A program made the position numbers and the translations under genes. A stretch of DNA of 20,559 nt, taken from positions 1-20,559 of the IMG/VR virus record IMGVR_UViG_3300000116_008942. One strand, 5' to 3'. This DNA comes from a virus. Shown piece after piece: positions 1-17,738 of the stretch. The notes beneath the pieces were generated by a model. The model saw only the letters and a list, made by a program, of their open reading frames with translations. It made no database searches and was not told where the DNA came from. Each line of letters starts with the position of its first letter. The stretch's first letter is position 1.

Positions 1-3000
1 CCATGATGGTATCAGTTGGAAAATTTTGTATCTTAGCAAAAGTAACTGCATCATTTTGAATTTCAGCAGTAGCAACACCAAGATCTTTAATTCTAACCAT
101 ATCACCTGTAAAGGCAAAGTTAAGACTACTAAACTTAGTAACACCGGCATTATCATGGGTTGCTTGTTCAGCTGTAATTGTAATTGAGTTATTAGCATTA
201 GTAATATCAATACCAGTTCCAGCAGTAAGAGTTGCCGCGGCAGGGCCACTCGTACCACCAATAAGCAGTTGACCATTTGTTGCCATTGTTACAGCAGATA
301 ATTTATCAGTACCACTGTCCTGAGAAATAATAACAGCCTTATTTGCAAATGCTGTATTACCAGTACCGCCCTTAGCAACTGCAAGAGTAGCTGATAGTGT
401 TGTTGCAGTATCAGCATTACCAGTTAAAGTACCAGTAAATACGTCAGACTTAACATTTGAACTACCACCAGGAGATGGAGTTAGATCCATCATTGTAGAA
501 CCATTAGCCTTAGCATATATTTCTATCAATGAATATTCATTACCACTATTAATTGAAGTACCAGTTGGATCAAAACGGAATCTAAATTTATCAGCAAGTG
601 ATGGACTATCACTATAATCATCTGATATTCTAAAGTCTAATGCTGATCTGTTTACGGCATCATTAATAGTAGAAACAAATCTTATTGCTGCACTATCGTT
701 ATCATTTAGGCCTCCATCAAAGGCAATTTCGGCACATTCTAATTTAGAATTATCAACAAAAACCTGATTATTTGCGATGGCACCTATAGATCTAGTAGTT
801 CCCGGTAATGAAGCACCAGTACCAGTAGTTCTAAATCTTAGTGCATTATTATAATATAGATCAACTGAATTGTCATTAGTAGCTCTAATCATTAACTCAC
901 CAGCAGCAGATTTGCGAACTTCAAAGAGCGGAGTTTCGATTTCTAGCTTATCATTTGAAGTAATATGACCACCAGCTCCGTCATGAATCATTTTGAGGTA
1001 ATCACTACCACCACCAAATGCATAGAAACCTTTACCTGAAGCAGTTGTTTTAACATCCTTATTACAATCAATCTGACCTTCGAAGTCATTAGTGCCAGTA
1101 CCGTTTTGATCGATAATACCACTTAGCTTAATATTACCGCCAACATCTAATCTTTCGGTTGGTGGATTTACATTAACACCAAGACTACCTCCGTCAGTAA
1201 GTACCATGGCACTTGAATTGGTTCCAGTGCCAAAATTAATATGGCCTCCTGATCCGTTAAGGGTTCTGATATAAAAATTACCAGCCGAGCAAACTATTTC
1301 ATTATTATCTAAACCAATACCATCAGCTGCAGTACCAACCAGCAACTTAGCATTTGCCATTGTTGCGCCGCCTATCGTACTAGCAGTCAGGTTTGTAACG
1401 TGTAGTCCGTCACATTCTGGAGAATCAGTACCAACTCCTAATTTACCGGTAGTTGATAATTGACCTGTTACTTTAGCACCACCTGCTAATGTTTCAAACT
1501 TCTTGGTCGACCCGCCCATAATTGTACTGCCATGATATAATTCTACCGCACCAGGACCATTATAAGAAGCAGCTTTTCTAAATCTGATCCACGGCCGTGC
1601 ATTTGATCTAAATGGATCTGATGAATTTCGTGCAGCACTACCAATTTCAAAGCCGTAGTTTTCATTCCAGTTTGCAGCAAGATAAGCCATACGAGTGCTA
1701 TCAATACCAAACTCAATTCTCTTATGAGCTTTTTCCCAAGTCTGAGTATTAGTGCTATGGCCAAGCCTAGACCTTTCATCAATTATCTGTAAGTACGATT
1801 CGTTATTATTGCGAGTTGTGAATGTAGCTTGAGTAGTACTAGAACCTACTGAAGCACCTAGTTGAGCGCTTTGTGCAAATATTGCACCACCTTTATCATT
1901 AAAATTAGTATTAGATAATATAACTTTATTAATAAGAGTAGAAGTACCAGTTGCTTTTTGTATTTTAATTTCTGAAGCTGCATCACGTATAACAACAAAA
2001 CTAGCAGCTTTAGCTGTACCATCAACATGAAGAGTTGTGTCTGGATTAAGCGTACCAATACCAACCGCTCCTCTACCAGTGATAATCATTTTCTCACCAT
2101 ACACACCGTTAGATGTGGCACCAAAGATTAGATTAGAAGTAGCTTCATTGTTATCACCGTAATCAGTATCATTAACCGTTGCTTGAGAAATCCGAACAAA
2201 ATTTGTTTTATTATTTGTATCCTGACCTTTAATATCAATAGAGATTTTACCAGGAGTAGCAGCATAATCAGATCCATGTGCTTCAAATGTAGCTAATACA
2301 TTAGTAGTTTGCAAATTACAGTTTCTCTTAAGAACATGCAATAAAGAAGCCGGAGCTAAATTATAATTCGAATCAGCGCCACCTGATGGGTCTTGAGCCG
2401 ACGGGAATGGAGCATTTCTAATTACTAAATTACCAGTTACATCAGCAGAATCTGCTTCTAAGTTACCGCTAATGTTAATACCGCCTGATTTCGTTTGTAA
2501 AACATCCTGAGATGCTTGTGCATCAGCAGTATTATGGTATAATCTAGTAGCACCGTTACCTTGACCAAGGAAATAAGCTTTACGAACACCATGAGATATA
2601 CCGCCAAGCTGAGCAAAGTGTGTATTACCGCTTGTTCCGTAGAACTCAAGGAAACTCATTCGAGTACCATTTATCTTATGTTGTAATTGTTTTGATGCAC
2701 TTCCAATAGATTCACTACCATCAGTTTGACTAATAATTCGTTCATCTCTAATTTCAAGTACTGACAAATCGCCTGATGTATTAACTCTGCCTTTAAACTC
2801 TGTACCAATACTTGTGGATCCGCTTGTATGACCTAAAGTGCTACCCGCCTGAGTAACATCATTTCGCGACTGTGTAAGCAAACCAATTATATTTGTTGAT
2901 TTTAAATTAGATGCGCCATTAACTGTCATGCCATTATTGGTAATATAAAGGCCACGTGTACGAATTTCGTCTTTATTAATCTCTAATCCTAATCGATCAG

Positions 3001-6000
3001 TTATTTCGTCTGCATCATCATGATTACCGTTTAAGAAGAATCTGTACTTACCGAATACATTTTTACCTTCACTATGTGTATCTTCAATATAATTAAATGT
3101 AGCGATAGTATCAGTAATACCTATTTTCATTACCTGACTTGCACTAACGCCGACACGACTTATTTCTAATGGTAATGTATTAGTCTCAGTATTAACTTTA
3201 AGTTGATTACTTACACCAGTAGTAATCTGAACTTTACCAGCACTAAGACCACCAAGAGTAACTAAGTTAGTACTTGCATTATAAGTTAGGCCATTATCAG
3301 TTCTAAGTTTGCCTTTGCGGCCGGCGGCAGAATTAGCATTAGTGCCATGAAACAACATTCTGTATTCTACGTTATCGTCAGCTTCAGTCGAATTGTATAC
3401 TTGATTAGCTGACATTGTATCGCCTTGAGCAACGATTGCACCTGACTGAGTATTAGTACTAATAGACGCTGTGTCCGAACCTCTATATAATACGAACTGA
3501 CTATTTGATTCGCTCCATGCAATCTTAGCCTCTGGTTCTTGTTCATTTAATCTAATATTACTTCCTGCAGCAAGAGCAGCAGCACCCGTTGTTGCTGCTG
3601 TAATAATATCGTTATTTGCAAGATCATCAGTCAGGCCGCCACCTATCGCTTTTAGAGCAGTTTGTTCTGCCCCGGTAATTGCTTGGCCAGTATTTAGTTG
3701 TTTAACTCGATATCTTTTACCTTTCGTTAATGCACCTACAATTGCAATTACATCAGTACTTGTTTTAAATCCACGGTGAGCAACAAAAGCAGCCGCAGGA
3801 AGATATGCTTGATTAGTACCAGCTGCAATATCAACATTTGGATTAGTTGTTAATGCATTTAATATAATAGATTTTGATGAAACTGTAGCAGAAGTAGTAG
3901 AGAATCCAAATGATCCACCACCACTTTGAGTAATAGAACCTGTTACAGCTAAAGCACCAGCAATTGTGGTATCACCTGTTGCGCCATCAACCGTAAATTT
4001 GTCTGTATTAATGATAAAGTCATTGCCAACATTTAAGTTATTTGTAATGCTAACATCACTATCTAATCCAATTGTAACAGTTCTTGTACCACTAACATCA
4101 GTTACAGCAGTTGTAGTTCCGTTTGTAGTACCAACAAATTTAAGATTATTACCTGATGCAACGGTCTGAGTACCAGTCTCACCTAGAACATTAAATGTTC
4201 CGAGGAAGTCGGCCATATCGACTTCAGCAATACCTGCAATTCGACCTTGACGATCAACATGAATTTGAGGAATCTTAGCAGTTGTACCCCATGCAGTCAA
4301 ACCGGCTGTTGCATCCGACCCTACAGGACCAGTGCCACCACCTGTCATATCAGTAGTTGTATCGTTTAATGAAACATCAAAGTTATGATTTGTAGCATCC
4401 CATGTAACTGTTACATTAGACATGCTATTAGCAACATTAGTTGTACCAATACCAAATAGACGGTATGCATTTTGGAAATCAACGTTAGGTTTATTATAAT
4501 CAGCTGGACTTGTTGCTGATGTTAGACCTTTTACGTGCCATGCAATATCGCTAGTATTATGAGCTGATGCTGGATTATTAGTATTAACAGAAGATTCTAT
4601 CCACTGTATAATTGCATCTTCACCTGTTTCAATAGTAGCACCAGTAATCCCACTACGATCAACTTGTAAACCTGCTCCAGTGTTTGCTGAAGGTTGTAGG
4701 TTTATAAATGCACTTGAAACATTAAATACGCCAGCAGCGTCTGATGACATTTTTAAGGTACCGGCCGAAACATCAAGAACCGTATTTGCACCAAACGTTA
4801 ACGTAGTTGTATTTGTTGCACCATCTCCAGGTGAATTAAAGTCAATATCACCGATTAGTGTTTGAGCACTAGCTGATACTCTATTTAATTTACCTGTTGG
4901 TTGTTGACCACTAGTATTTTTAACTGTAACGGTTGCAGCGCCTGTTCCATCAACTAATTCTCTTATCGATGTCACAATAGTACTTGATGTAGTACCTAGG
5001 TTACCTGCAGTTACATCACCTAGCTCATCAGTAATTTCTTTAATTGCTGGTACTAACGTAGCTTCAGTAGTACCCATGTTTGCTGAATTAACTTCTTGAC
5101 CAATGCGCGCATCAATCGCGTTAATTGCATTTACAACAGTAGAAACATCAAATCGTAAGGTATCACCACTATTGATTGTTGAAACAACATCTGTATCTAC
5201 AACAATACTATCGGCATTAACAGTTGTTACTTTAGTTCCAGCTGCAATACTATCTGTACGACCAGTTTCTATATTTAGAACCGACATACCTGGTACGATA
5301 CCAGTTGTATCACCCATTGGAATTGTTGTTTCTAAAGCAACAACTTCGCTAGAAGTATCTTTTTGGACTCGAGTATTGATTGCTCCTAGGTTAGCAGCAG
5401 TAGCAACAGGATTACCAATTAATCCTTGAATCTCAGTAATTGCGGGAACTATGGTAGTTTGAGTGTAACCAACAGCATTATTTAGATCAAGAACTTCACC
5501 AATTTCGGCATGTAATTCGTTAACAGCAGCTGTTAAATGAGTTGCAGTTGTAGTTAAATTTGCACCACTATCACCAACATCACCAATATCAATTCTTAAT
5601 TGTCTAATTGCTTGTGTGAGAGTTTCATTACTACCACTATTAATTGCGTTACCAATATCAGCATTACCGATTGCAGCAGTAATACCATTAATTGCCAATT
5701 GGAAATCTGTACTAGCATATACATCAGATCCTGTAGTTGTATATAAGTCTGCATGGAATGGCGATGCAGTTAGTAGACTTTGTTGACCAAGATCAGTTTG
5801 AAGTTCGGCAATAGCATTAACGACCGTTGTAGCTGAAAAATCAGTTTCGTCATTTACATTTAAAGTAGCAATTGTATCTGTAAGATCACCAGTACCAACA
5901 AGAGCTGTTTTTAATTCAACTAATGAATCAGTAACTCTCGCGTTATTAAAATCATTATCTGAATTATTGAGTGAAGTAACATCACCCATTAAATCTTGGA

Positions 6001-8965
6001 TTTCTAGAATAGCATCAATAATATTTGTTTTACTATAACCAGCCAAATTAGCTAGGTCAGTAATTGCATTTTGAATTGTGGCATTAGTTGCTGTGTCTGT
6101 ACGAGCATTTGTAACTGCTGCTAAGTTTGCAGTGTTACCAACAAGCGCTTGTCTTAATTCTGTCAATGCTGATACTACTGTTGCTTCAGAAGCTGTTTCA
6201 GCTACGGCATTTCTAAATCCACCAACACCATCAGTCTCTTGACCACTAGTATCGTTATATGCAGTAGGTGAAGAATTTAATGTATCTGGTTCTCCAAGCT
6301 CAACATGCATTTTATCGACAGCTGAAGTAATTGTATTTGAAGACCCTATCGCATCAAGGCTGGTATTACCGACAAATGATGTTAAAGTATTAACCGCAGT
6401 TATAATACCATTATTGACGGTATAAGTAATGTCAGATGGTAGATTATCTGTAATAGTGTAATTATTTACTGTTCCACGGATATTTGTTTCTAATTCATTA
6501 ATAGCTGATGCAATATCGCCATTAGAAGTTGTTAATAGTGCAGCAGTACCAATTTCGTCTTTAATATGATTAATTTGTGCAACAATATTGTTTGTTGCAG
6601 CAGCAGTACCAATAAGATTAGCTGTACTAATACCAACTCTATCACCAACAATAGTTTGTAATTCAACAATACCATCAGTATTTGTAGTTGCAGCAAAGTT
6701 TGCTGCAGGTGCTACATTAGCAGACAACGCGGCCTGAGCATCATCGATATCACCAGGACATACAAGAGTTCTTAATTCAATAAGAGCTGTTGTGAGAACT
6801 TCGGTATCAAATCCACCAGCAGTTGCTGAACCAGTAGCATCTAGAGTTGTAACATCACCGACTTCGTCATGAAGCTGTGCAATAGTGGTAGTAACATTTT
6901 CACCAGTAGTAATATCAGAAATATCTGTACTACCAATAAAGTTTTTAATTGTTGTAATTGCATCAGTCAAAGTAGAAGATGCGTTGGCTGTAGCACCTAA
7001 ATTTGCATCTGATAAATCAGTATTACCAATAAAATCAACTACGCTTTTAGCTAAACCACTAATAGTATTTACATTTGCTGGAACCAAATGTGTATTATTA
7101 GTAATAATTGGCATTTCAGCATTACCAATCATATCTTGTAATGTATTCAATGTTGTAACAAGATCGGTAGTATCAAATGCTTTTCTGTCTCCAGTAGCAC
7201 CAAATCCTGCTTGAACAGTATTAGTTGCAAGATCTTCAATCTTACCAATGTCATCTTGTACTTCTACGATTGCATCAACCGCACTAGCAAATTCAATTTC
7301 AAATGTATCACCAGTAACTGCAGGAGTATTTAGTCGAATAATAGATGAGAATGTATTGTCTATTACACAATCAGTATGAGCTGCAGTAAATTTACTTGCC
7401 TCAACCGTAGCAGCTCCAGTTGTAGTACCTCTTAATCTTCGTGCTGGATTAAAAGTACCAATTACATCATACAGTATAAATCCACCATTAGTTCCTAGAC
7501 CATATTTTGATGATGTTACACCAGTCAATATAACAGCACTAAATGATGCAATGTTCGATGCTGACTCTACATTACCATCGGTAGTTTGATAAATTCTTTC
7601 ACCTTCTGTGAATGATGCCGGAATTATAGCACTTGCGCTAAATGGCAAAGCAAAGGTTGCACGAGGTAAATGGAAACCATTTGCTGTATTAACATTCTGT
7701 TCTAATTTTGTTGTAGTACCACTATTTGTTTTATATACTCGAACGTAACCAAAATCAAGTGAACCAACAACTTGTCTAACTAATCGAGCTGCAAGAATTT
7801 GTTGTGTTGCATAATTATCAGCCGAACCTAGATTTAATCCTGGATTAAATGTACCAACTGCATTTGTAATAAGAAGTTTTGCAATATTATTTCCGCTTGA
7901 ATCTCTTACAACACCTACAATATCGGCGGCAAACTCACGAGCATTACTAGAGCTGTTGCCAGTAAACTGATGTACAGAATTTCCTGCTGTAAAATCTGTA
8001 GGAGCACCTGCATCGACTTGGTTATCTATAATAATATAACCTGCAGTCATATCGAGCTTTTTATCAGTAGCTAAATCAATTCTCATACCAACATCATTAG
8101 AACCATTAGATTGATCTCGAATAAATTCTTCATCAAGATCAATAATTTCACTTGCACCAATAGACACACTTAAGGCAACATTTTCTAGAATAATTGAAGT
8201 CTCTGTTACTGTGGTATTAGTAGCATTAGCATTTCGACCACCAACGGTGAAACCAACTTGAACTTCAACATTATTACCTTCTTCAATATCTAGTGATATA
8301 TCCCAATCATTTGCTGAAGTTATTACAGCTACTGCTTCAGAAAGAAGAGCATAATCATTAGTTATATCTAGTGTTCGAATATATGCTTCTACAGTATATC
8401 TTGAATGTAAATCACTAGATTGAATATCACCAGTAAATTGTAAGGTTTTACCTCTCCACGCAGTATTTTTTTGGAAAGTATTAAACTCGATATATGCTCC
8501 GCCATCACTGCCGCTTTGAGCATAATTAGTACCACCTTGTGAAACTCGTAGATTGTTATCAGCGTAAACACTAGTGTTAGGAGCTAAGGTAATGTCACCA
8601 TCTACTGCAACACTAAATTTCTGATCATCAATATTAGTACCACCGACACCAAGACCAGAAGCTATATTACCAAATCCACCTAAAGAGGCACCTTTGCCCG
8701 TTGAACCATCTAATGCGAAAAAATCGTTCCAACCTTGCCATGGAGCAGAAGCACCAACATCTGCAGAGGTTGCAGTAGATACACCAGTCGATACATTGAC
8801 TATTTTAGCTTGGTCAGTAAGACGAGTTTCCTTATCTAGAGAATCTGCATTTTTATTACTATCACTTTCAATCGGACCTAGATCAAATGATACTTGGTTA
8901 GAGGACTGTCTCCATTCTTCAAACGTTGAAGTCTTTGGTATTCTTGTTTCTTTATTTTGCGCCAT
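1..8965 (-). CDS. Giant tail-fibre-like virion protein, C terminus beyond window (2988 codons visible)
   Basis: Probably a long fibre or fibre-like appendage anchored to the baseplate that reaches the host surface. The frame is open from the ATG at 8965 to the window edge with no stop, so the C-terminal tip is missing. Visible order: residues 1-60 a polar N terminus with TFEEWRQSSNQVSFDLG, resembling N-terminal anchors of marine phage fibres; about 125-270 a beta-rich, jelly-roll-like region; about 270-560 unrecognised; 561-1340 a degenerate INEL-x-x-x-IG repeat array interrupted at 1208-1274 by an unrelated module; about 1345-1760 beta-rich segments with IPQIHVDRQGRI and FTVDGATGDTTIAGAL; three VGIGT-x-x-P-x-x-x-LHV-like shaft motifs near 2297, 2504 and 2591; AVAKGGTGNTA near 2862. 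The start overlaps the preceding stop in TAATG, and no strong Shine-Dalgarno sequence is visible, which suggests coupled translation. No catalytic motif was seen. Fibre assignment rests on repeats and position; host receptor unknown. Confidence 0.88.
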   Translation of the reverse strand, partial: MAQNKETRIPKTSTFEEWRQSSNQVSFDLGPIESDSNKNADSLDKETRLTDQAKIVNVSTGVSTATSADVGASAPWQGWNDFFALDGSTGKGASLGGFGNIASGLGVGGTNIDDQKFSVAVDGDITLAPNTSVYADNNLRVSQGGTNYAQSGSDGGAYIEFNTFQKNTAWRGKTLQFTGDIQSSDLHSRYTVEAYIRTLDITNDYALLSEAVAVITSANDWDISLDIEEGNNVEVQVGFTVGGRNANATNTTVTETSIILENVALSVSIGASEIIDLDEEFIRDQSNGSNDVGMRIDLATDKKLDMTAGYIIIDNQVDAGAPTDFTAGNSVHQFTGNSSSNAREFAADIVGVVRDSSGNNIAKLLITNAVGTFNPGLNLGSADNYATQQILAARLVRQVVGSLDFGYVRVYKTNSGTTTKLEQNVNTANGFHLPRATFALPFSASAIIPASFTEGERIYQTTDGNVESASNIASFSAVILTGVTSSKYGLGTNGGFILYDVIGTFNPARRLRGTTTGAATVEASKFTAAHTDCVIDNTFSSIIRLNTPAVTGDTFEIEFASAVDAIVEVQDDIGKIEDLATNTVQAGFGATGDRKAFDTTDLVTTLNTLQDMIGNAEMPIITNNTHLVPANVNTISGLAKSVVDFIGNTDLSDANLGATANASSTLTDAITTIKNFIGSTDISDITTGENVTTTIAQLHDEVGDVTTLDATGSATAGGFDTEVLTTALIELRTLVCPGDIDDAQAALSANVAPAANFAATTNTDGIVELQTIVGDRVGISTANLIGTAAATNNIVAQINHIKDEIGTAALLTTSNGDIASAINELETNIRGTVNNYTITDNLPSDITYTVNNGIITAVNTLTSFVGNTSLDAIGSSNTITSAVDKMHVELGEPDTLNSSPTAYNDTSGQETDGVGGFRNAVAETASEATVVSALTELRQALVGNTANLAAVTNARTDTATNATIQNAITDLANLAGYSKTNIIDAILEIQDLMGDVTSLNNSDNDFNNARVTDSLVELKTALVGTGDLTDTIATLNVNDETDFSATTVVNAIAELQTDLGQQSLLTASPFHADLYTTTGSDVYASTDFQLAINGITAAIGNADIGNAINSGSNETLTQAIRQLRIDIGDVGDSGANLTTTATHLTAAVNELHAEIGEVLDLNNAVGYTQTTIVPAITEIQGLIGNPVATAANLGAINTRVQKDTSSEVVALETTIPMGDTTGIVPGMSVLNIETGRTDSIAAGTKVTTVNADSIVVDTDVVSTINSGDTLRFDVSTVVNAINAIDARIGQEVNSANMGTTEATLVPAIKEITDELGDVTAGNLGTTSSTIVTSIRELVDGTGAATVTVKNTSGQQPTGKLNRVSASAQTLIGDIDFNSPGDGATNTTTLTFGANTVLDVSAGTLKMSSDAAGVFNVSSAFINLQPSANTGAGLQVDRSGITGATIETGEDAIIQWIESSVNTNNPASAHNTSDIAWHVKGLTSATSPADYNKPNVDFQNAYRLFGIGTTNVANSMSNVTVTWDATNHNFDVSLNDTTTDMTGGGTGPVGSDATAGLTAWGTTAKIPQIHVDRQGRIAGIAEVDMADFLGTFNVLGETGTQTVASGNNLKFVGTTNGTTTAVTDVSGTRTVTIGLDSDVSITNNLNVGNDFIINTDKFTVDGATGDTTIAGALAVTGSITQSGGGSFGFSTTSATVSSKSIILNALTTNPNVDIAAGTNQAYLPAAAFVAHRGFKTSTDVIAIVGALTKGKRYRVKQLNTGQAITGAEQTALKAIGGGLTDDLANNDIITAATTGAAALAAGSNIRLNEQEPEAKIAWSESNSQFVLYRGSDTASISTNTQSGAIVAQGDTMSANQVYNSTEADDNVEYRMLFHGTNANSAAGRKGKLRTDNGLTYNASTNLVTLGGLSAGKVQITTGVSNQLKVNTETNTLPLEISRVGVSASQVMKIGITDTIATFNYIEDTHSEGKNVFGKYRFFLNGNHDDADEITDRLGLEINKDEIRTRGLYITNNGMTVNGASNLKSTNIIGLLTQSRNDVTQAGSTLGHTSGSTSIGTEFKGRVNTSGDLSVLEIRDERIISQTDGSESIGSASKQLQHKINGTRMSFLEFYGTSGNTHFAQLGGISHGVRKAYFLGQGNGATRLYHNTADAQASQDVLQTKSGGINISGNLEADSADVTGNLVIRNAPFPSAQDPSGGADSNYNLAPASLLHVLKRNCNLQTTNVLATFEAHGSDYAATPGKISIDIKGQDTNNKTNFVRISQATVNDTDYGDNNEATSNLIFGATSNGVYGEKMIITGRGAVGIGTLNPDTTLHVDGTAKAASFVVIRDAASEIKIQKATGTSTLINKVILSNTNFNDKGGAIFAQSAQLGASVGSSTTQATFTTRNNNESYLQIIDERSRLGHSTNTQTWEKAHKRIEFGIDSTRMAYLAANWNENYGFEIGSAARNSSDPFRSNARPWIRFRKAASYNGPGAVELYHGSTIMGGSTKKFETLAGGAKVTGQLSTTGKLGVGTDSPECDGLHVTNLTASTIGGATMANAKLLVGTAADGIGLDNNEIVCSAGNFYIRTLNGSGGHINFGTGTNSSAMVLTDGGSLGVNVNPPTERLDVGGNIKLSGIIDQNGTGTNDFEGQIDCNKDVKTTASGKGFYAFGGGSDYLKMIHDGAGGHITSNDKLEIETPLFEVRKSAAGELMIRATNDNSVDLYYNNALRFRTTGTGASLPGTTRSIGAIANNQVFVDNSKLECAEIAFDGGLNDNDSAAIRFVSTINDAVNRSALDFRISDDYSDSPSLADKFRFRFDPTGTSINSGNEYSLIEIYAKANGSTMMDLTPSPGGSSNVKSDVFTGTLTGNADTATTLSATLAVAKGGTGNTAFANKAVIISQDSGTDKLSAVTMATNGQLLIGGTSGPAAATLTAGTGIDITNANNSITITAEQATHDNAGVTKFSSLNFAFTGDMVRIKDLGVATAEIQNDAVTFAKIQNFPTDTIM
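4945..7284 (-). repeat. Degenerate tandem protein repeat in fibre shaft, about 23 units
   Basis: Within the giant fibre, residues about 561-1340 consist of units averaging near 33 residues. Each has a helix-like core of the form (I/V/L)-x-x-A-(I/V/L)-x-x-(I/L)-x-x-x-(I/L/V)-G, followed by a variable Thr/Asn/Ala-rich loop. Examples are LTAAVNELHAEIGEV, VVNAIAELQTDLGQ, IASAINELETNIRG, IVPAITEIQGLIGN and LVPAIKEITDELGD. The pattern is clear in protein but strongly diverged in DNA, so the array is old or under sequence turnover. Short amphipathic cores separated by loops would fit a segmented trimeric coiled-coil shaft. That structure is an inference. Confidence 0.85.
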
Positions 8966-9184: not shown

Positions 9185-12100
9185 TTAAGTTGCCGCAATC
9201 GCTCTAAAGTTTCTTACCATAGGAACATTAGATGAATCTTTACCAGTTAATACTATTTTTAATGCAAAAACACTAAATCCACGCCAACCTGGACCTGCTC
9301 CTGGATTAATAATCCATTCAACATTATCAAAGCCTGAACCTTCTGAAATTGGATCAGTTGATGCAGCATAAGTCCATGGAAGTAGATTAAAGTTATCATC
9401 TAAATTACTAGATGTTTTATAATATAAATGAACATTTGAATCTTTGCCTTTTGATATATTAGCAAGAACTCTTAATTCATTAGCGTTATCTTCCAATGTT
9501 ACATTTCTAGTTATGTAATTATTTATATTACTTACACCGATGGGTGATGTATCAGGAGTATAATATCTACCAGCTCCGGACTTATTATTATAAAATGCAT
9601 TTTGAGTAGAACTTGAAGGATTCAATATATCTCCAGGAGATTGTGTCACATCTTGAACAGATTCATAATAGAAGTTTAATGAACCGTCTGGCGCATATTG
9701 ATTATAAGATCCTGGATCGCTTATTCTGTTTTGTGTTAAAAACAACGAGTTTCTTCTTCCATCAATCACCGGTGATAGGAAATTAGATTCATTAGTAAAG
9801 TTAATTGTAGCAGAGAATGACTTGTTTAAGAAAGTCGACTGTATTATACTTGCCTTTTGAACCTCATTCTTTTCTGATGCAATTAGACATGGGAACTCAG
9901 TATCAAAAGATTGATTTAACGTAAGAACTTCAGAGATTACTGGAGCATAATCCATTTGCTGACCATGACTCGCTGCTCTATCACCGTCCATCGATCTACC
10001 GGTAATAGTTTTAAACTTAGCAGATAAATTAGTTCCAGATGGTTGGAAGTTTTCATTATAAAGATAAAAACTATTAAATTGAGCATTACCATTAGCAAAT
10101 ATATTAGTACCACCACCTCGAATACCTACAGTTGTTGCAGCACCAGGCACAGTTATACAATATGAATCGTGTTCAATATCATGTACCGTAAATCCTGCAC
10201 TACGATTTAAGTTTGCTGCAGTAAGGCCATTTTCGCTAACACAGCCACTTAGAACAACTACGCTATTTTTACTAGGTGAAGCACTATGAGCAGCTCCTTT
10301 TTGATTACCAGTATACATACCATGATTAGGATGTCTAACTCTAATTACAGTATTAGAGTTATCTTCTGAAATATAATGGAATGGGTTACTACTTAACTTA
10401 TCTGCTTCTAGTTTATCATTTACAAAATTAATTTTATAATTGTCATTACTTGAACTACTATTTACATCGAAATTTGCACGATATAAATTAAACTTTAAAT
10501 CTCTTAATTGATGAGGAGACCATGTAGAAGCATTTTGTGATGTAAAGAACACACCATTATATGGTTGCTTACCAATCATTGCTGGTTGAGATGAGTTTCC
10601 AGTTATATCGTATTTACCAGTTTCTGAGAAATATACTTTCCAAAGCTCAGATGATGCAATTAATACGACTGAATATTCAGTAGCTTCTGACAAATAAACA
10701 GGATGTTCAAATGTTATGGGACATGCAACACTTGCATCATCTGAAACATCACCTGCATAACATGTATTCTCAGCTCGAGCGATACCAGTACTACCACCAG
10801 CATTTGTAGCATGTGTACAAATGAATGAATCACCGACAGATGGTGTTGCACCGTGTTTATCACCATTAGGACCAACATGATTAGCATTCCAACCAGCATT
10901 AGACCAGTTCGCGTTACCTGTCACTCTAATTGTGTATGTATCGCCTACTACTAATGCATTAGCATTATGGCCATTAGTTTGAGAATTATAATAAACAGTT
11001 ACATCAGAACCTGGGACAATTTTCTGTGTAGGTATACCATTTTCAACTAATCGTAAACTTACTCGCAATGGAATACTTGCTTTTTCTGCAGTACCTCCAG
11101 TATCATCGGCTCGAGCAACAAATAAATCTAATTTAGTTGTAAACATACCACCAGACTGATCACATATAAATGTTTGTGCTAATGGATCGATATATTGCAC
11201 TCTCTGAGATACTTTAGTTACTGCATCTTCTCTAATAGTTTGTGAATCAGCTAGTTGCGTAGTTTCAATACTTGGAACACGTGTAGAATGAATTGTTTCC
11301 TCTAAGTATTGTGCTTGACCTTGTGCAAAGTAACTTGCTTCTGCATAAGAAACTTCAGTAACTGTATTATTAGTTGAGTCATCGGAAAGTCTAAATTCTT
11401 TTGTACCAACTTTAAATCTTAATCCTGATGCATTATTAGGTATTAAGAACTTACCAAATAGCTTACCACCCGCATCAGAAATAAGTGGCCCTTGAGGTGT
11501 GCTACTTGTCTTATTAAAATTCGCGTTAACATTAATTTCTTCTTGTTGTGAAAACTCAACAAAGCCATTAGGACCATAATTAGATTCTACACTCACACAA
11601 TAATCGCTTACATCGACACCATCAAAGAAAGGATAGAATCTAGTATTAGGCTTTAAATGTTCAGCTCTAAAATATATATGACGTGGGCGCATAAGTGGAA
11701 TAACATTTGTCTCAACTACTTTACTACCTTGAGATTCATATTCTGTATCCCAAACAATAGAGTTATTGAATCCTTCTCTTACTTGGTTATGAAAAGTTGT
11801 TTCTTCATGTATTGTTTCATTAACCTTAATTCTCATGCCTGATCCACCAGTTGCAGTAGCATCAAACCAATCATGATTAGGATTATCTTGTTCTGCTAAT
11901 AAAGCATCAATATCTACTCTTTGGAAATCATATGAATGAGTGGTATTTGCCACCCAATCTCCACCGATTCCATCTACAGTATGAGCACCAGACTTCCATC
12001 CATGTGTTGCTTGTAGAGTCATGTTTCTTTCACTAACAAGATCAATATCTTTTCCAGTATATATTGTTTCCCATTCATTCCAGAATGTACCTATAGCATT

Positions 12101-15100
12101 TTCCTCTAGCACTGTTGCCAATAAAGCATCACTTATACCTTCTTGATCAATAATTACTTCTGGTCGATGATATGTGTCTAACCATTCATCACTATCGGGC
12201 GAAAGATGCATAGTACCGCCCCATGTAAAGATATTGTATGGATTAACTTTTATACTATCAACAGCATAGGGCTGTTCGATAAATGTAGTGTTAGTATATG
12301 GTAATGTGTATATAGAATTTTTAAGAGCAATCTTAGAACTCTTAGGTTCAGTACCAGTGCCCTGATTCATATCATTAACATATCTACGTAGAGGTACATT
12401 TCTAAAATTACAATGCGGTCTTAAAATACCTTGATATTTGTCAACAGCATTTAAATAATCTGGGTGGTTAACATTACCTTTATTGTGACCTTTAAATGAA
12501 TCTACAAAAATACCATTTTTAAATAAAGGGTTACCAGAATCATCAACCATGTGTTGATTTGTTGCCGAAGCTTCTAAAAAGTTTAAAGATGTATAGTATT
12601 CTAGTTTCTTAATTCTTTTATCAAGATTTCCAATATCTTTCATTTGATATCGTTTATAGTTATGAGTCGTAACTTTATAATCTTTTTGAGGTGGTGCTCT
12701 AAACATAAATCCATTTAAGAATAATGTGAAAAGAGTCATAGCATTAGATCGATCTTCTGGAATAGTAGGATTTAATCCAGTTTCACCTTTAATAACATCG
12801 AATTTTCCTTCTTTATCTACTATGATTTTATCTACACGAGGTAAATAAAATTCCATATCAGTTGTAACTTTTTCACCTTGAGCTGGTGGCTTACCGACTA
12901 CACCACCTGTACCACTAGAAAATTCTTTACCTAATACAGGAGAATTTGTTCCATTTGTTACAGCTTTAACTGGTCTAAAGTCAATACAATCTCTTAAAGG
13001 TAAACCATTAAATTGTCTAGCGTAATAAGTTTTATCATCTCCACTGTGTGAATCAATTGTAAAATAGTCGCCAGTTCCATGAGAATAATATTTAAATTTA
13101 ACTCTTAAGTCTGCAATCACGGTACCAGCATTTTTTGGAATCAACTTGGCTTCGTCGTAATATGCTTCTCTTTGACCATCATCAGATGTAAATTGATCTT
13201 TTATATTATCAAAAAGAATAATAGCTTGACTATTAGCAGCTTGAATTAATGGTTTACTCAAAGTTACTACACTTACTCCGCCATCTACTTCAACACTAAC
13301 TACTGTTCCATAACTTATTGGCTCTAGATTACCAGTATCAGTAGATGATTTTACGATTTGCATGCCAGGAATAATTCCCGATACAGATGCAGTTAACTTC
13401 AGCGTAGTAGAACCAATTGTATTAACCGTAGCAGCAGTTGTTGCACTTATTTTAGTTGAATTATCATATGCATAGTATATTCTAGAAACATCTGGTTTAT
13501 GTAATCTAATTTCGCTATATCCGTCAAATGCATAACCAGTGAAAGGAGCAGTACCGGTTTGAGACCATTGAGGTGTTTTAGTTCTTAAAGATTTATTACC
13601 AGTTGGATCAGTTTGCGTCTTTTCAATAGTAATAATAATATTACAATCAGCGTCATCTTCAGTTGCATCTAATCCAGTAACAGTAACAGTACCACCAGAT
13701 TCTGTCACGTTTGTTGTAAAAGCAAGTCCACTAGCATCTTGTGTTAAAAAGCCAGTATTGCCGTATAAAGATTCGCCTGAAGATAAGTCAAAAGTTGCAC
13801 TAGTAGAGTTATTAGCGCTTTTATTAAATTTAACTTTTTTCTTCAATCTTACTCGTGGAACCTCAGCAGTTGGAGATACATGTGATCCGAGATGCTTAAT
13901 TGATCTATATGGTAAACGGAATAACATCGATGTTGCACCACCAGATCTTGCATTCGTAAATAGCTTACCTGTATGAGCAGTAGGAATCGTTGCGGTAAAA
14001 TCTTGGAAATCACCACCATCTCCTCCTTCGTGCTCTTGCGTAATAACCTTAACATCTGTCAATGACCCGCGAGTTATATTTACATCGAATACATGTAATC
14101 TAGCTAGTGAATTATCAGAACTACTAGGATGTTTTTCAAGAGATCTAGTTCGACATGTACCAATACCTAGTAATGTACCATCTAAGTGCAGAGCAGTAGA
14201 TCCACCCCCGAGCTCTGCCGCAGGAATTGTTAGGTCCCAATTAGTAGCATAGTTATTACCGCCATCAATCATGGTAATAACACAAGAACCGTCATACATA
14301 ATTTCTAAATCAAAAGTAAGACCGACACCACTACCAGAATTACTTACTGTAAGATCAACACCTGTGGTTACTGTTCCATCAGATGCAGTTTTCTTAAAGT
14401 TATTTGTAGATGCATGCGCAAGAACTTGTTCGTATCTTACTTTTTGTTGAGTTCTTCCGGAAGTAGGACCGGCCCCTGTAACATCCTTAAAGTGTGCAAT
14501 CGCTGTACTAGCTGAACTTGCTGATTGCAACGTTGCAACAGTATAGTCATTAATATCTGGCATACCTCTAACAGTTGATGATTCAACAATAAAGAAATTA
14601 CCATAGTTTATTTCTCTTTCAACATCACCAAATGCTAAGGTATCAGTACGTGGTTTTTCAATTTTTATGTATCGTGTTTTTAGATTTTCTATCCTATAAC
14701 CATCTACATACATTGTATTCGGTTCAATACCAAATGCAAGATGATTATTACCATAAATTTTAGCCGCTTGAGTATTAGCAGCATCTCCATCAGCTATAAT
14801 TCCTGCAGCAGTTCTATAGCCATTATTACCACCTTCGTTATTTAGATAGTTTCTTACATCATATTTAAAAGGTGATATTGAGTAATTACCAGACTCTTCT
14901 TTTGTTCTAGTTGCTAATCTTGCACTAAATTCAGTTGTATTATTTGGATCACCATTAGACTTATCAGATGCAATAACACCTTGATCAGTTGTTAGCAATA
15001 ATACATATTGGTTAAATTCATCATTAGGGTTTGAATCCTTTGGTGTTTTAATTAACTTAGTACTAATTTGATATCTATCAGCACCAGGAGCAGATAGATT

Positions 15101-16003
15101 AGTAGTACCTGCAGCGTTATCATTTAATGATGAGTCTGTTACAGACGTTACAACTGATTCTGTAACACTTAAACCAATAATATATGACGGATCATTTGTG
15201 TATTTGTCTAATATTACCTCCTGATCTTTAACATAAACAAATGTACCTTTAATAAAATATGCGCCTTCTTCAATAACAGCTTGAGAACCAGATCCTACTG
15301 CTGAAGCTGCAGCTATTTCTGAATCACTATTAGTGTCGTCTACAAATGCTGTTCCAATAAAATCAGTAGCAGTTGCAGTTGATGCAGAACCACCGTCAAG
15401 TGTATCACCATTACCAAATCCACCTACGCGTGTTTTCTTTGTAGTAATTTCATTGCCTGATGAATTTAAAAGCTTAATTATTTCACCGGGTAAAAAGGTT
15501 TTATTTGTTCCACCAGTACCATTAGCCGCATCGCCATCACCAGACGTATATTGAACATATAACGTAATAGGATCGCCAGTTGGATCAGATAAAATACCAT
15601 TTTTTGTAGAATCATTTGCATCAGTACCTACTGCGTTAATTGCTTGAAGTACTGTTGCTTTTACTCCACTTGTTGTACCTTCGATAGTACTACCTTTATA
15701 ATCTGCAAGATATGATGAAGTTACGTATGCTGTACCGCCTGTTGTAAATGTATCTTCTACCTGAATATAGTCATAGTTTAACTCAATAGAAGGTTTACCA
15801 CCAACAACACGAGCACCATCGGGGAATGTATATTGACCATGATAATCGATTTGTCTTTGTATGGCGGTTTGCATTTGTGTAAGCTCGCGAGCTTGAACAG
15901 CAACTCCTGGTTTAAACAATACTCGATGATAGTTTTTAGTTTCATCGAAATCGTCTAGAGTATACGCACTATTAGGATTTCTATTTACAGTTGTAATTGC
16001 CAT
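9185..16003 (-). CDS. Very large baseplate/tail virion protein with DUF4815-type N terminus (2272 aa)
   Basis: Probably a peripheral baseplate or tail-appendage protein that links the wedge to fibres. The N terminus, residues 1-90, has the DUF4815-type pattern of marine T4-like phages: a YHRVLFKPG segment, then VQARELTQMQ and a QIDYHGQYTFPDG segment. Later landmarks are a GNNY beta module at about 572-590; an inserted PGM-type module at 861-932; a conserved stretch at about 1232-1315 including NPYNIFTWGGTMHLSPDSDEW; RPRHIYFRAEHLKPNTRFYPF at about 1437-1457; DPLAQTFICD near 1604; a second inserted module with WSNAGW at 1682-1745; and a C-terminal region with FLSPVIDGRRNSLFL near 2080. No signal peptide, membrane segment or enzyme motif was seen. 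The frame is uninterrupted. It begins 17 bases after the gene 8 stop, in the region where T4 carries genes 9-12, but I see no clear similarity to those proteins. Structural role is likely; exact location in the virion is inferred. Confidence 0.87.
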   Translation of the reverse strand: MAITTVNRNPNSAYTLDDFDETKNYHRVLFKPGVAVQARELTQMQTAIQRQIDYHGQYTFPDGARVVGGKPSIELNYDYIQVEDTFTTGGTAYVTSSYLADYKGSTIEGTTSGVKATVLQAINAVGTDANDSTKNGILSDPTGDPITLYVQYTSGDGDAANGTGGTNKTFLPGEIIKLLNSSGNEITTKKTRVGGFGNGDTLDGGSASTATATDFIGTAFVDDTNSDSEIAAASAVGSGSQAVIEEGAYFIKGTFVYVKDQEVILDKYTNDPSYIIGLSVTESVVTSVTDSSLNDNAAGTTNLSAPGADRYQISTKLIKTPKDSNPNDEFNQYVLLLTTDQGVIASDKSNGDPNNTTEFSARLATRTKEESGNYSISPFKYDVRNYLNNEGGNNGYRTAAGIIADGDAANTQAAKIYGNNHLAFGIEPNTMYVDGYRIENLKTRYIKIEKPRTDTLAFGDVEREINYGNFFIVESSTVRGMPDINDYTVATLQSASSASTAIAHFKDVTGAGPTSGRTQQKVRYEQVLAHASTNNFKKTASDGTVTTGVDLTVSNSGSGVGLTFDLEIMYDGSCVITMIDGGNNYATNWDLTIPAAELGGGSTALHLDGTLLGIGTCRTRSLEKHPSSSDNSLARLHVFDVNITRGSLTDVKVITQEHEGGDGGDFQDFTATIPTAHTGKLFTNARSGGATSMLFRLPYRSIKHLGSHVSPTAEVPRVRLKKKVKFNKSANNSTSATFDLSSGESLYGNTGFLTQDASGLAFTTNVTESGGTVTVTGLDATEDDADCNIIITIEKTQTDPTGNKSLRTKTPQWSQTGTAPFTGYAFDGYSEIRLHKPDVSRIYYAYDNSTKISATTAATVNTIGSTTLKLTASVSGIIPGMQIVKSSTDTGNLEPISYGTVVSVEVDGGVSVVTLSKPLIQAANSQAIILFDNIKDQFTSDDGQREAYYDEAKLIPKNAGTVIADLRVKFKYYSHGTGDYFTIDSHSGDDKTYYARQFNGLPLRDCIDFRPVKAVTNGTNSPVLGKEFSSGTGGVVGKPPAQGEKVTTDMEFYLPRVDKIIVDKEGKFDVIKGETGLNPTIPEDRSNAMTLFTLFLNGFMFRAPPQKDYKVTTHNYKRYQMKDIGNLDKRIKKLEYYTSLNFLEASATNQHMVDDSGNPLFKNGIFVDSFKGHNKGNVNHPDYLNAVDKYQGILRPHCNFRNVPLRRYVNDMNQGTGTEPKSSKIALKNSIYTLPYTNTTFIEQPYAVDSIKVNPYNIFTWGGTMHLSPDSDEWLDTYHRPEVIIDQEGISDALLATVLEENAIGTFWNEWETIYTGKDIDLVSERNMTLQATHGWKSGAHTVDGIGGDWVANTTHSYDFQRVDIDALLAEQDNPNHDWFDATATGGSGMRIKVNETIHEETTFHNQVREGFNNSIVWDTEYESQGSKVVETNVIPLMRPRHIYFRAEHLKPNTRFYPFFDGVDVSDYCVSVESNYGPNGFVEFSQQEEINVNANFNKTSSTPQGPLISDAGGKLFGKFLIPNNASGLRFKVGTKEFRLSDDSTNNTVTEVSYAEASYFAQGQAQYLEETIHSTRVPSIETTQLADSQTIREDAVTKVSQRVQYIDPLAQTFICDQSGGMFTTKLDLFVARADDTGGTAEKASIPLRVSLRLVENGIPTQKIVPGSDVTVYYNSQTNGHNANALVVGDTYTIRVTGNANWSNAGWNANHVGPNGDKHGATPSVGDSFICTHATNAGGSTGIARAENTCYAGDVSDDASVACPITFEHPVYLSEATEYSVVLIASSELWKVYFSETGKYDITGNSSQPAMIGKQPYNGVFFTSQNASTWSPHQLRDLKFNLYRANFDVNSSSSNDNYKINFVNDKLEADKLSSNPFHYISEDNSNTVIRVRHPNHGMYTGNQKGAAHSASPSKNSVVVLSGCVSENGLTAANLNRSAGFTVHDIEHDSYCITVPGAATTVGIRGGGTNIFANGNAQFNSFYLYNENFQPSGTNLSAKFKTITGRSMDGDRAASHGQQMDYAPVISEVLTLNQSFDTEFPCLIASEKNEVQKASIIQSTFLNKSFSATINFTNESNFLSPVIDGRRNSLFLTQNRISDPGSYNQYAPDGSLNFYYESVQDVTQSPGDILNPSSSTQNAFYNNKSGAGRYYTPDTSPIGVSNINNYITRNVTLEDNANELRVLANISKGKDSNVHLYYKTSSNLDDNFNLLPWTYAASTDPISEGSGFDNVEWIINPGAGPGWRGFSVFALKIVLTGKDSSNVPMVRNFRAIAAT

Positions 16004-16020: not shown

Positions 16021-17727
16021 TTAAAATTCTATAATTAGTTTAACATCTTCAATTTGAGATGTACTTCTTTGAATCGGATCACGATTTTCAAGGAATAACA
16101 TTTCACCAGATCCAGGAGTAAAGCTACTTGGAGCAGGATTAAATGCAATATCATGAGTAGCTGCAGCCAATGCATAATCAGTTTGTTCTTGACCTGCAAT
16201 TTTAATTACCATATCAGCATCTTCACCTGTAACATAACCGGTTAAATCATTTTGGAAATAATAAATTCTTCTTTTATCAGCAGCTGTATCTACATTAACT
16301 ATATATCCTTTAAAGCCAGAGCTAGTGTTTTCAATTACATAATCATTTTGTTGCACAAGCTGTGATAATGTAAGTGCATTATCATCATAAGCACTACCAT
16401 AGGTTATGTATTTTAGTGTGTTAATAGCACTTGCTGGGTTAGTAGAAATTTGACCACCAACAAGAGGGTTTCGTATAAGTGATACTTGTCTAAAGTCTTG
16501 TGTATTAGCAATTTCAGTATCAACAGTACCACTTATTTGAACGTTAATGCCAACATAAAAACCACCTAGCTCGAACACTGGATCACAACCATGACCACCA
16601 TTTGCATGTGAAGTATTAAATCCAGGGCGTCCTCGAGGTGAAATAATTGGAAGGTATTCAGCATCTGTACCACCGCCACCAGTAATTGAAGCTTGAGCAA
16701 CACTAAAATCTGCACCAACATTATCAGAAGAACCTCCAGTTGTAGCTGCGCTAACAATAATATCACTGATAAATGCTCCACCAGATATATAATTGGAACT
16801 AATCTGACCATCGGTTGAAATCGCACTACCATCGCCTGTAATTGTTAAAGTTGTACCAGAACCATCATTATTATAACCACTACCACCATTAATTAATTTT
16901 AGTCTATGTACACCTTGAGCTGAACCAAGTTCGCGAGAAGTTATTTGTGATTGCTGCTGTGAATATTTTGGATCAGTAACAAGGAAATCACCAAAAGTTA
17001 CAATATCTCCATCAGACAAGGTAACAGTTGCAGATACTGTTATTGTTTTACCACTTACTGCAGTTACTACTGTATCAGCACCAATAGTTCCACCTGTTGC
17101 ACTAATTACTTGACCTTTCATAATTCTAGGATTTTCGAAATCAATTGTAAATGTTGTTGAACTAGAAACTGATGCTGCAACTGTAGCTTTAGTTTCTTCT
17201 GTTAAAGTTTTAACAGGCATATAAGAATTTGTTAGGAACTTTTCTGAATCAGCCGCTAGAATAGTATACATGTATTTCCAATAATAACCATCAGAAGTTG
17301 CAGTAATATTTGCATCAACATGAGTTGGTACATCTGATACACCACCTGAAACGGGAGCAATAACACATTTGTAAACTTTAAAATCTGGAGTTAAACAATA
17401 AAAAGCTTTATCGTAAATAGCTGGATCAGTTGAATCCCATGCAACAAACTCTGCTCCAGCAACCCAATCATATCTTGGTACAACATGTGATATGTCATTA
17501 TCAGTTACTAGCTTCATACCAATCATCTGTTGTCGAGCTTCGTTGATTGCATCCAATGTATCAGTGGGGGTAGGTGCATCTGAATCACTTGTATTAGCAG
17601 TAGTAGTGCCTCCCCATGGACTAGATTTACCTAATCCAATGTATATGTTACTTCTATCACCTTTTACTTCATCAACAAAAGCTGCAGCATTGAGTGATCT
17701 AAAATTTCCCGAAATTATAGCGGCCAT
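16021..17727 (-). CDS. 8: Baseplate wedge protein gp8 (T4-like), enlarged form
   Basis: T4 gp8 is a baseplate wedge subunit, a dimer that joins gp7 and gp10 around gp6. Matches with remembered T4 gp8: IYIGLGKSSPW (residues 28-38) to FITFGRSEPW; SDGYYWKYMYTI (145-156) to GDGYVWEYLFEI; FRQVSLIRNPL (412-422) to FRQISIITNPL; and the C terminus GEMLFLENRDPI (541-552) plus IEDVKLIIEF to GEMIYMENRPPI and TEEINILFTF. The protein has 568 residues against 334 in T4. Most of the excess lies between residues 185 and 410, with a PGM-like module at 190-247 and a glycine-rich GSGY module from about 274; a smaller one is at 445-530. The ATG is well supported by AGGA seven bases upstream. The gene lies between a gene 7-position protein and the 2272-residue protein, which is the T4 order. 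Confidence 0.94.
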   Translation of the reverse strand: MAAIISGNFRSLNAAAFVDEVKGDRSNIYIGLGKSSPWGGTTTANTSDSDAPTPTDTLDAINEARQQMIGMKLVTDNDISHVVPRYDWVAGAEFVAWDSTDPAIYDKAFYCLTPDFKVYKCVIAPVSGGVSDVPTHVDANITATSDGYYWKYMYTILAADSEKFLTNSYMPVKTLTEETKATVAASVSSSTTFTIDFENPRIMKGQVISATGGTIGADTVVTAVSGKTITVSATVTLSDGDIVTFGDFLVTDPKYSQQQSQITSRELGSAQGVHRLKLINGGSGYNNDGSGTTLTITGDGSAISTDGQISSNYISGGAFISDIIVSAATTGGSSDNVGADFSVAQASITGGGGTDAEYLPIISPRGRPGFNTSHANGGHGCDPVFELGGFYVGINVQISGTVDTEIANTQDFRQVSLIRNPLVGGQISTNPASAINTLKYITYGSAYDDNALTLSQLVQQNDYVIENTSSGFKGYIVNVDTAADKRRIYYFQNDLTGYVTGEDADMVIKIAGQEQTDYALAAATHDIAFNPAPSSFTPGSGEMLFLENRDPIQRSTSQIEDVKLIIEF

Positions 17728-17738
17728 GACTTTTTCCT
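17728..17738 (-). promoter_or_regulatory. Ribosome binding site of gene 8
   Basis: The minus strand reads TAGGAAAAAGTC before ATG. The AGGA (17738-17735) overlaps the TAG stop of the preceding gene and stands seven bases from the ATG, a normal Shine-Dalgarno spacing. It is the clearest ribosome binding site in the window and fixes the gene 8 start. Confidence 0.75.

Follow-up and report, generated by a model that had tools for sequence, protein, structure and literature searches.

In the available text on the LKA1 tailspike, a small six-stranded barrel is described as breaking into another virion-protein fold (PMC5701251). The corresponding text on phage lambda describes an additional domain in gpJ (residues 483-569) that is inserted between two strands of the hub domain and that its authors classify as a beta-sandwich (PMC10721106). 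Ig-like domains (Big_2, I-set and FN3; Fraser et al. 2006) are optional additions to many virion proteins and have been proposed to help adsorption, as stated in the accessible part of PMC10276861. Phage domain mosaicism is a further precedent, with tail fibre and baseplate proteins sharing shuffled fragments (PMC10684548); the part of that paper available contains no description of the module discussed below, and the word 'cyanophage' is absent from its main text. Neither the barrel insertion-domain fold nor the concept of phage particles bearing accessory insertions is new. Among the titles and abstract openings found in an open-licence library, including those on cyanophage and pelagiphage virion proteins, none deals with the present sequence module or with its use across the baseplate, propeller-like and fibre proteins of a single lineage.

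The window analysed here comprises 20,559 bases of a 20,890-base IMG/VR virus record. Its minus strand encodes the end of an FG-GAP-like protein, the baseplate wedge protein gp8, a 2272-residue DUF4815 protein and a giant fibre. The FG-GAP-like protein (17737-20559, upstream of gp8) matches FG-GAP_2 (E-value: 9.9e-5; 22.9 bits against a cut-off of 23). Gp8 (16021-17727, 568 aa) matches PF09215 (E-value: 6.6e-18) and phrog_438, and its predicted model aligns with T4 gp8 (1n7z) across 255 residues (Z 15.4), such that both the Phage-Gp8 profile and the fold fit. The DUF4815 protein (9185-16003) has the domain PF16075 (E-value: 3.2e-52) and belongs to phrog_358 (E-value: 0). The giant fibre (3-8965) is an open reading frame that runs on past the window; it has no PHROG match at E<=0.1, and its sole Pfam match falls under the cut-off of that family. 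No tRNA genes were found in the window, and no DNA repeats joining the three modules described below are among the 20 listed of at least 60 direct repeat families. In a tblastn search, gp8 matches 465 phage records, most of them named Synechococcus phages, with Pelagibacter phage Mosig ranked best (29% identity). In Mosig, as in the window, a DUF4815-type protein directly follows gp8; the flanking genes on both sides differ. In the related locus L005 (8680-15546), the DUF4815 protein is divided into two adjoining open frames (1137 and 1151 residues), unlike the single frame of L002, L003, L006, L008 and L010.

The initial annotation had reported a shared segment in the fibre, the DUF4815 protein and gp8, and all three segments lie at the positions given there to within 3 bases; residues 861-932 of the DUF4815 protein correspond to 13208-13423 rather than 13205-13420. 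With limits set from the profile and the predicted model, all on the minus strand, copy F occupies 5147-5362 (fibre residues 1202-1273, amid helical-repeat units), copy T 13208-13444 (DUF4815 protein residues 854-932) and copy G 16987-17196 (gp8 residues 178-247); the latter two are documented by hhalign, by AF2 prediction (model and strands, respectively) and by site comparison. The module is approximately 70 residues long. It begins with a TT-hydrophobic strand followed by G-[LI]-x-x-G-[MQ]-x-[VI], and continues with I-x-x-[GD]-T-x-[VI]-x-x-[VI], a short strand and G-[DN]-x-[LIV]-x-F. The motif GM-x-V-x-G-x-x-IP-x-GT is frequent in phage and bacterial proteins. Elsewhere in the fibre gene, a 48-base stretch at 7269-7316 (fibre residues about 551-566) shares 71% identity with 5124-5171 (repeat family D3), where the fibre module ends and the following repeat starts. 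Judged from this resemblance, the stretch may represent the terminal part of one more, degenerate copy of the module where the helical-repeat region begins.

An iterative HMM was seeded with one natural copy from the related fibre L032. This search reached all three window segments, together with copies in relatives and in isolated cyanophages. The reversed-sequence control gave 0 hits at E<=0.01 in iterations 0-4. At the last pass, 2 of the 62 hits at E<=1 were reversed sequences (one at 0.0073), and the reversed-sequence hits of the final profile (0.0073 and 0.0084) were counted against homology. Copy F is matched with an E-value of 2.7e-23 when the fibre family is included and 1.8e-9 when it is left out. 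When each family was left out in turn, all nine members of the fibre family were recovered (E-values: 9.6e-11 to 6.3e-7). Nine of ten gp8-family members were recovered (1.2e-6 to 3.1e-3), the weakest of which are not separated from noise because the best reversed hit is 1.9e-3. Recovery of the DUF4815 family was marginal (6/7, 0.0036 to 0.051; best reversed hit 0.45). In this test, the window copies in gp8 and the DUF4815 protein were entered as L024 and L027 (duplicate or near-duplicate sequences).

Profile-profile comparison with hhalign was performed using 80-residue sliding windows along each host protein, again with the tested family left out. In gp8 the segment comes top among 49 windows (probability 96.5), and in the DUF4815 protein it comes top among 220 (probability 93.5, score 37.9). 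All nine windows listed for each of these proteins overlap the segment, and the remainder score at most 21.6 and 17.3, respectively. Among the 183 windows of the fibre, the segment itself ranks ninth (96.7); the top eight hold a second module copy which, among the fibres compared, is carried by L026 and L029 only. A profile containing none of the three families still finds gp8 (94.3) and the DUF4815 protein (91.1), with 29-31 aligned columns in the four best windows, and matches DUF4815 window 851-930 over 61 columns (88.5); the fibre's own segment is not in the best six rows listed for this profile. Copy T is the weakest in single-profile tests. The three segments thus form one sequence family, as had been proposed. 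By these sequence comparisons, homology of the fibre and gp8 copies is established, and homology of the DUF4815 copy with the family is very likely.

Gp8 was folded with AF2 using 19 gp8 sequences (mean pLDDT 68.6). The module at residues 178-247 is predicted to contain six strands (178-183, 187-195, 207-210, 220-225, 228-237 and 242-247), with pLDDT values of 76-93 between residues 181 and 240 and lower values at the edges. It is flanked by stretches with pLDDT below 50 (175-177 and 248-268). The DUF4815 copy was modeled from a 35-row family alignment which already held the other families, making the model not fully independent; it has six strands in the same order as the gp8 module (pLDDT 79.5). 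The predicted folds of these two of the three copies therefore agree, and when the models were searched separately they matched the same segments of the same PDB chains. For the gp8 module and the DUF4815 copy, respectively, these are the Mystique tail tube (9n71) at 103-186 (Z 9.1, 76 residues, 3.9 A) and 104-180 (Z 10.2, 75 residues, 2.0 A), the LKA1 tailspike (4ru4) at 284-373 (Z 7.8) and 286-371 (Z 9.0), the Chi tail tip (8vjh; Z 7.5 and 8.8), the lambda tail tip (8k35) at 490-567 (Z 5.7) and 490-565 (Z 7.5) and the P22 coat at 224-344 (Z 7.0) and 225-346 (Z 6.6). Z-scores of about 9-10 barely exceed those of unrelated barrels (GH110, 8.0; ATP synthase, 7.3). For the DUF4815-copy model, the Klebsiella K1 lyase (Z 9.1) ties with LKA1, and the Dit OB-fold insertion of T5 pb9 (5mf2; Z 7.0) is tied with other barrels. 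Neither PDB nor BFVD yielded a Foldseek match at E<=0.001; the top viral hit is an S-PM2 protein (E-value: 0.0056). From sequence only, profile A3 (built without isolated phages) gives five PDB matches at E<=10. The first is 9n71 residues 110-172 (E-value: 0.0018) and the second is 4ru4 chain positions 125-196 (E-value: 0.47), which by an inferred numbering offset would be the LKA1 insertion domain; neither P22 coat nor lambda is among the five. The module is accordingly predicted to be a self-folding, six-stranded small beta-barrel, with fold agreement between two copies.

Comparison with the described systems shows both likenesses and differences. Like the insertion domain of the LKA1/P22 type, which both models match, the module is a six-stranded barrel that interrupts another fold. 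LKA1, however, has one insertion in one protein, beside a proposed active site, whereas the module is one family in three proteins of one operon (four when relatives are counted), spanning baseplate and fibre. The Mystique domain (104-180) is the best domain-level match of both models and of A3, but it sits in the tail tube protein of an Acinetobacter phage, unlike the module's hosts. The Ig-like domains share with the module the trait of being optional beta domains on varied virion proteins; the module is instead a predicted six-stranded barrel. The inserted domain of lambda gpJ is matched by both models, but is absent from the A3 sequence matches.

Homologues of the host proteins were compared at 23 loci from a gp8 search (which also carry the DUF4815 homologues) and 9 loci from a fibre search; row counts for gp8 and the DUF4815 protein exclude the near-identical L001 and duplicates of the window. 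At the gp8 site, which lies between a conserved MPVKTL segment and a GSGY region, the segment is present in 10 of 24 rows and absent in 14 (the window and 23 relatives). The nearest gp8 rows that do not carry it are those of L011-L014 (51-52% identity in the best segment), in which MPVKTL runs nearly straight into the following region. T4 gp8 has approximately 52 residues here (212-263) versus approximately 233 (174-406) in the window protein, with borders set by weak local alignments. The statement in the initial annotation that T4 gp8 has no equivalent of the segment therefore holds, and among the gp8 relatives examined the segment behaves as an insertion and not as an ancestral part of gp8. 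In the DUF4815 protein, the insertion point is a linker ahead of a conserved GQR-x-x-[FY]YD motif. Seven of 25 rows have the segment at this site, ten have a short linker, one (L016) has another insert and seven fall short of it, such that the site is empty in 10 of the 18 rows that cover it; S-H9-1 and L034 have the short form as well. The fibre insertion point lies inside a run of helical shaft repeats. Orthologues of copy F occur in L026-L033, and the segment is found in 9 of 12 fibre matches; the other three are distant and repeat-rich, and provide no clean empty site. The proposal that the module splits neighbouring fibre repeat units thus fits the sequence, but lacks an alignable empty fibre site.

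The insert at the DUF4815 site of L016 (residues 912-972) is a different module, with the outline GE-x-ITG ... TGAxxxV, in the place taken by the barrel in the window. Used to seed an iterative HMM (no reversed hits at E<=0.01), this insert also leads to the 'GE..TG' module in gp8 of the window (16165-16371, gp8 residues about 453-521), L013, L016 and Mosig, in each case in the C-terminal part. The presence of a different module in L016 suggests that the DUF4815 site is a permissive slot.

The family is broader than the three copies originally reported, extending to the FG-GAP-like protein, to fibres of relatives and to structural proteins of isolated cyanophages. In the FG-GAP-like protein, a copy (U) is present in L004, L005 and L006. 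The site is empty in L001, L002, L003, L007, L008, L009, L010 and the window's own record, where it lies in the 331 bases just beyond the window end (L040 extends the record); L011-L014 and L034 are omitted from this comparison as they were unalignable there or skipped. The flanks of the site are closely alike in L003 (empty) and L006 (filled). L026 and L029 have the second fibre copy, which the eight other alignable fibres lack. These two sites are insertion differences between related phages. A third fibre subtype (L032, L033 and L043, near residue 1141) could not be established as a clean insertion, the alignment of the repeats being ambiguous. The L043 fibre (locus 4522-7479, 3144 residues) has four or five module matches of different subtypes in a single chain; with A3 at E<=1, the L043 record gives five fibre matches and one in another frame.

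Profile A3 was also run on 12 whole records, nine of which have matches at E<=1. Among the named phages, five of six of which were picked because tblastn had already shown a copy and which are thus not a random sample, S-H9-1 and S-RIM32 have 7 matches each, S-RSM4 has 5, S-CREM1 has 2, Mosig has 1 and S-SM1 has 0. The six IMG/VR records have 4, 6, 3, 1 (E-value: 0.029), 0 and 0 matches, the first three being records that contain sequences used in A3. S-SM1 has no A3 match at E<=1 even though it is a tblastn hit with a stretch drawn into the iterative profile. The products under the named-phage matches are annotated as structural, virion structural or tail fibre proteins with two exceptions, a hypothetical protein in S-CREM1 and 'putative VrlC' in Mosig. 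The Mosig match (E-value: 1.7e-5) was not accepted as a clear copy, as it lies elsewhere in the DUF4815 protein and is equally like the 'GE..TG' module. According to the S-RSM4 record, two of its matched proteins are similar to structural proteins of S-PM2, one of which was detected there by mass spectrometry; S-PM2 itself has a match when the S-H9-1 copy is used as query. That query matches 27 records at E<=0.01. With the L032 copy as query, tblastn matches 51 of 50,697 phage records at E<=0.1 (best E-value: 0.004), all of which are named as Synechococcus, Prochlorococcus or cyanophage. The fibre region gave no tblastn match in the same 50,697 records at E<=0.01.

Members of the family are also found in four bacterial MAG contigs (L052-L055) assigned to Leptospiraceae, Chloroflexi, Akkermansiaceae and Prosthecobacter. 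Two of these copies are in open frames of more than 2,500 residues with Ig-like and nidogen-like domains. The Chloroflexi copy has the same sequence as the copy in viral contig L045, and so this contig may be viral. Given these bacterial contigs, transfer is possible in either direction.

Among 14 copies scanned against Pfam, the best match has an E-value of 0.017 (16.1 bits against a cut-off of 20.9). Big_2, I-set and FN3 are not among the eight families listed at E<=1 for these copies; an Ig-like model of another kind, INTS4_C, matches one copy (E-value: 0.073). Two bacterial segments and one whole fibre have no Pfam match at E<=0.01. For 35 copies scanned against NCBIfam, the best match (E-value: 0.0071) is to an unrelated enzyme model. 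In PHROGs, the families matched are those of entire virion proteins, with phrog_6005 hit by 11 of 14 copies. The family has no credible Pfam or NCBIfam model among the scanned copies, and so routine annotation would miss it.

The tree, built from 35 copies, has a separate clade for each window site (support: DUF4815 99/99, gp8 100/99, fibre 99/98). Across sites, a grouping is seen only for the fibre and FG-GAP-like-protein copies (95/94); long branches are flagged in a warning from the tree program. From the per-site clades, the three window copies were acquired before the clade diversified and were then inherited in place; recent copying among the three sites is not supported, as each is monophyletic. 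The initial annotation had suggested a mobile domain spreading among virion proteins. That one domain is inserted in-frame in different virion proteins agrees with this suggestion, but ongoing spread of the three window copies is not supported, as these were inherited where they stand. All three are open and in frame in every close relative examined that covers the sites. Identity within the gp8 module is 47-72% versus 70-80% in the 100-residue flanks (lower in 9/9 comparisons), and within the DUF4815 module 42-93% versus 57-98% (lower in 6/6 comparisons, L016 left out). The fibre module is not more diverged than its flanks (74-82% versus 74-87%, five comparisons). The loops that look conserved, as judged by eye from the alignments, differ by site: ENPRI in gp8, EP-x-SYG in the DUF4815 protein and GRT-x-SIA-x-GT in the fibre.

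The window segments are probably three copies of one six-stranded barrel domain inserted in-frame into virion proteins, a reading that concerns their identity and insertion and not their function. Two alternatives to it were considered. If the segments were merely analogous, their likeness would reflect convergence or generic beta-rich sequence of the kind that gives repetitive virion proteins their recurring G-x-x-G-M turns and beta strands. Small barrels are indeed a common fold, and the first hhalign comparison, using the three families alone, gave probabilities of 83, 84 and, for DUF4815 versus fibre, only 7. Another profile, A1, matches a short stretch of the ATP synthase beta subunit (about 27 residues; E-value: 0.0055). 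Kinship with ATP synthase was rejected, as the larger profile A3 does not give this match at E<=10, and the A1 match is taken as a similar hairpin in another small barrel. The family-left-out scans, in contrast, place the segment above the other windows of gp8 and the DUF4815 protein, the reversed controls are nearly empty, the family alignment spans about 70 columns and the segments match insertion boundaries in whole host-protein alignments. Convergence is accordingly considered quite improbable; chance or composition is likewise made unlikely by the sliding-window scans and the reversed-sequence controls, least surely so for the DUF4815 copy. The second alternative, that gp8 and the DUF4815 protein had the segment from the start and other lineages lost it, draws on the fact that at deep nodes the pattern alone cannot tell loss from gain. 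The gp8 site, however, is empty in T4, Mosig, L011-L014, L016, L018, L019 and others, which disfavours the segment as an ancestral part of gp8. Together with the 10 of 18 empty DUF4815 rows, these sites would require several parallel clean losses. Searched by tblastn at E<=1, the 50,697 phage records contain no match to the gp8 copy, although such a search is weak for distant copies. Ancestral presence followed by loss is thus highly improbable.

The proposed model for insertion of the barrel domain is as follows. The barrel enters virion proteins in-frame at places that tolerate it, namely gp8, the DUF4815 linker, the fibre shaft and, in relatives, the FG-GAP-like protein. The DNA would move by recombination between tail genes of co-infecting phages, which is the default assumption. 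The module is presumably solvent-exposed and accessory, as other copies come and go between close relatives and as its sequence has diverged further than the adjoining regions of gp8 and the DUF4815 protein. It would then act as a plug-in exterior domain whose loops gain site-specific contacts after insertion, given that different loops look conserved at each site. The likeliest effect would be weak binding to the cell surface or local bracing of neighbouring subunits, as proposed for other phage insertion domains.

Adhesion is tentatively preferred as the role of the barrel, slightly ahead of bracing, with bracing ahead of no benefit; the latter two differ from the proposed model only in function. 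As a structural brace, the barrel would serve as a contact in assembly or stability, with a fixed interface preserving it at each site. The P22 coat insertion domain, to which both models align (Z 7.0 and 6.6), likely stabilises subunit interactions according to the LKA1 authors (PMC5701251). Each site also seems to keep its own loops, and the window-site copies were inherited through the clade. Against a general assembly role stand the module's greater divergence than its flanks at two sites and its gain or loss among close relatives at two others, and bracing is regarded as possible but doubtful. A neutral passenger, by comparison, would be a self-folding domain that exposed loops tolerate and that spreads by recombination while conferring no benefit. 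Variation in presence and absence among close relatives would be expected of it, as would the acceptance of two different modules at one site. It is nevertheless unlikely, because the window copies are open and in frame in close relatives with site-specific loops kept, which suggests selection and argues against a pure passenger.

More speculatively, marine T4-like phages may keep a kit of interchangeable exterior modules (the barrel and the 'GE..TG' module) that are slotted into baseplate, propeller-like and fibre proteins, such that the outer surface is rebuilt while the core stays fixed and the gp8 and DUF4815 sites serve as standing docking slots. Since related phages include both filled and empty forms of a site, removing a single module from a cultured cyanophage could show how it affects adsorption or stability. 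The predicted barrel would add a further promiscuous accessory domain to the Ig-like ones, in marine T4-like viruses and in proteins that include the core baseplate protein gp8.
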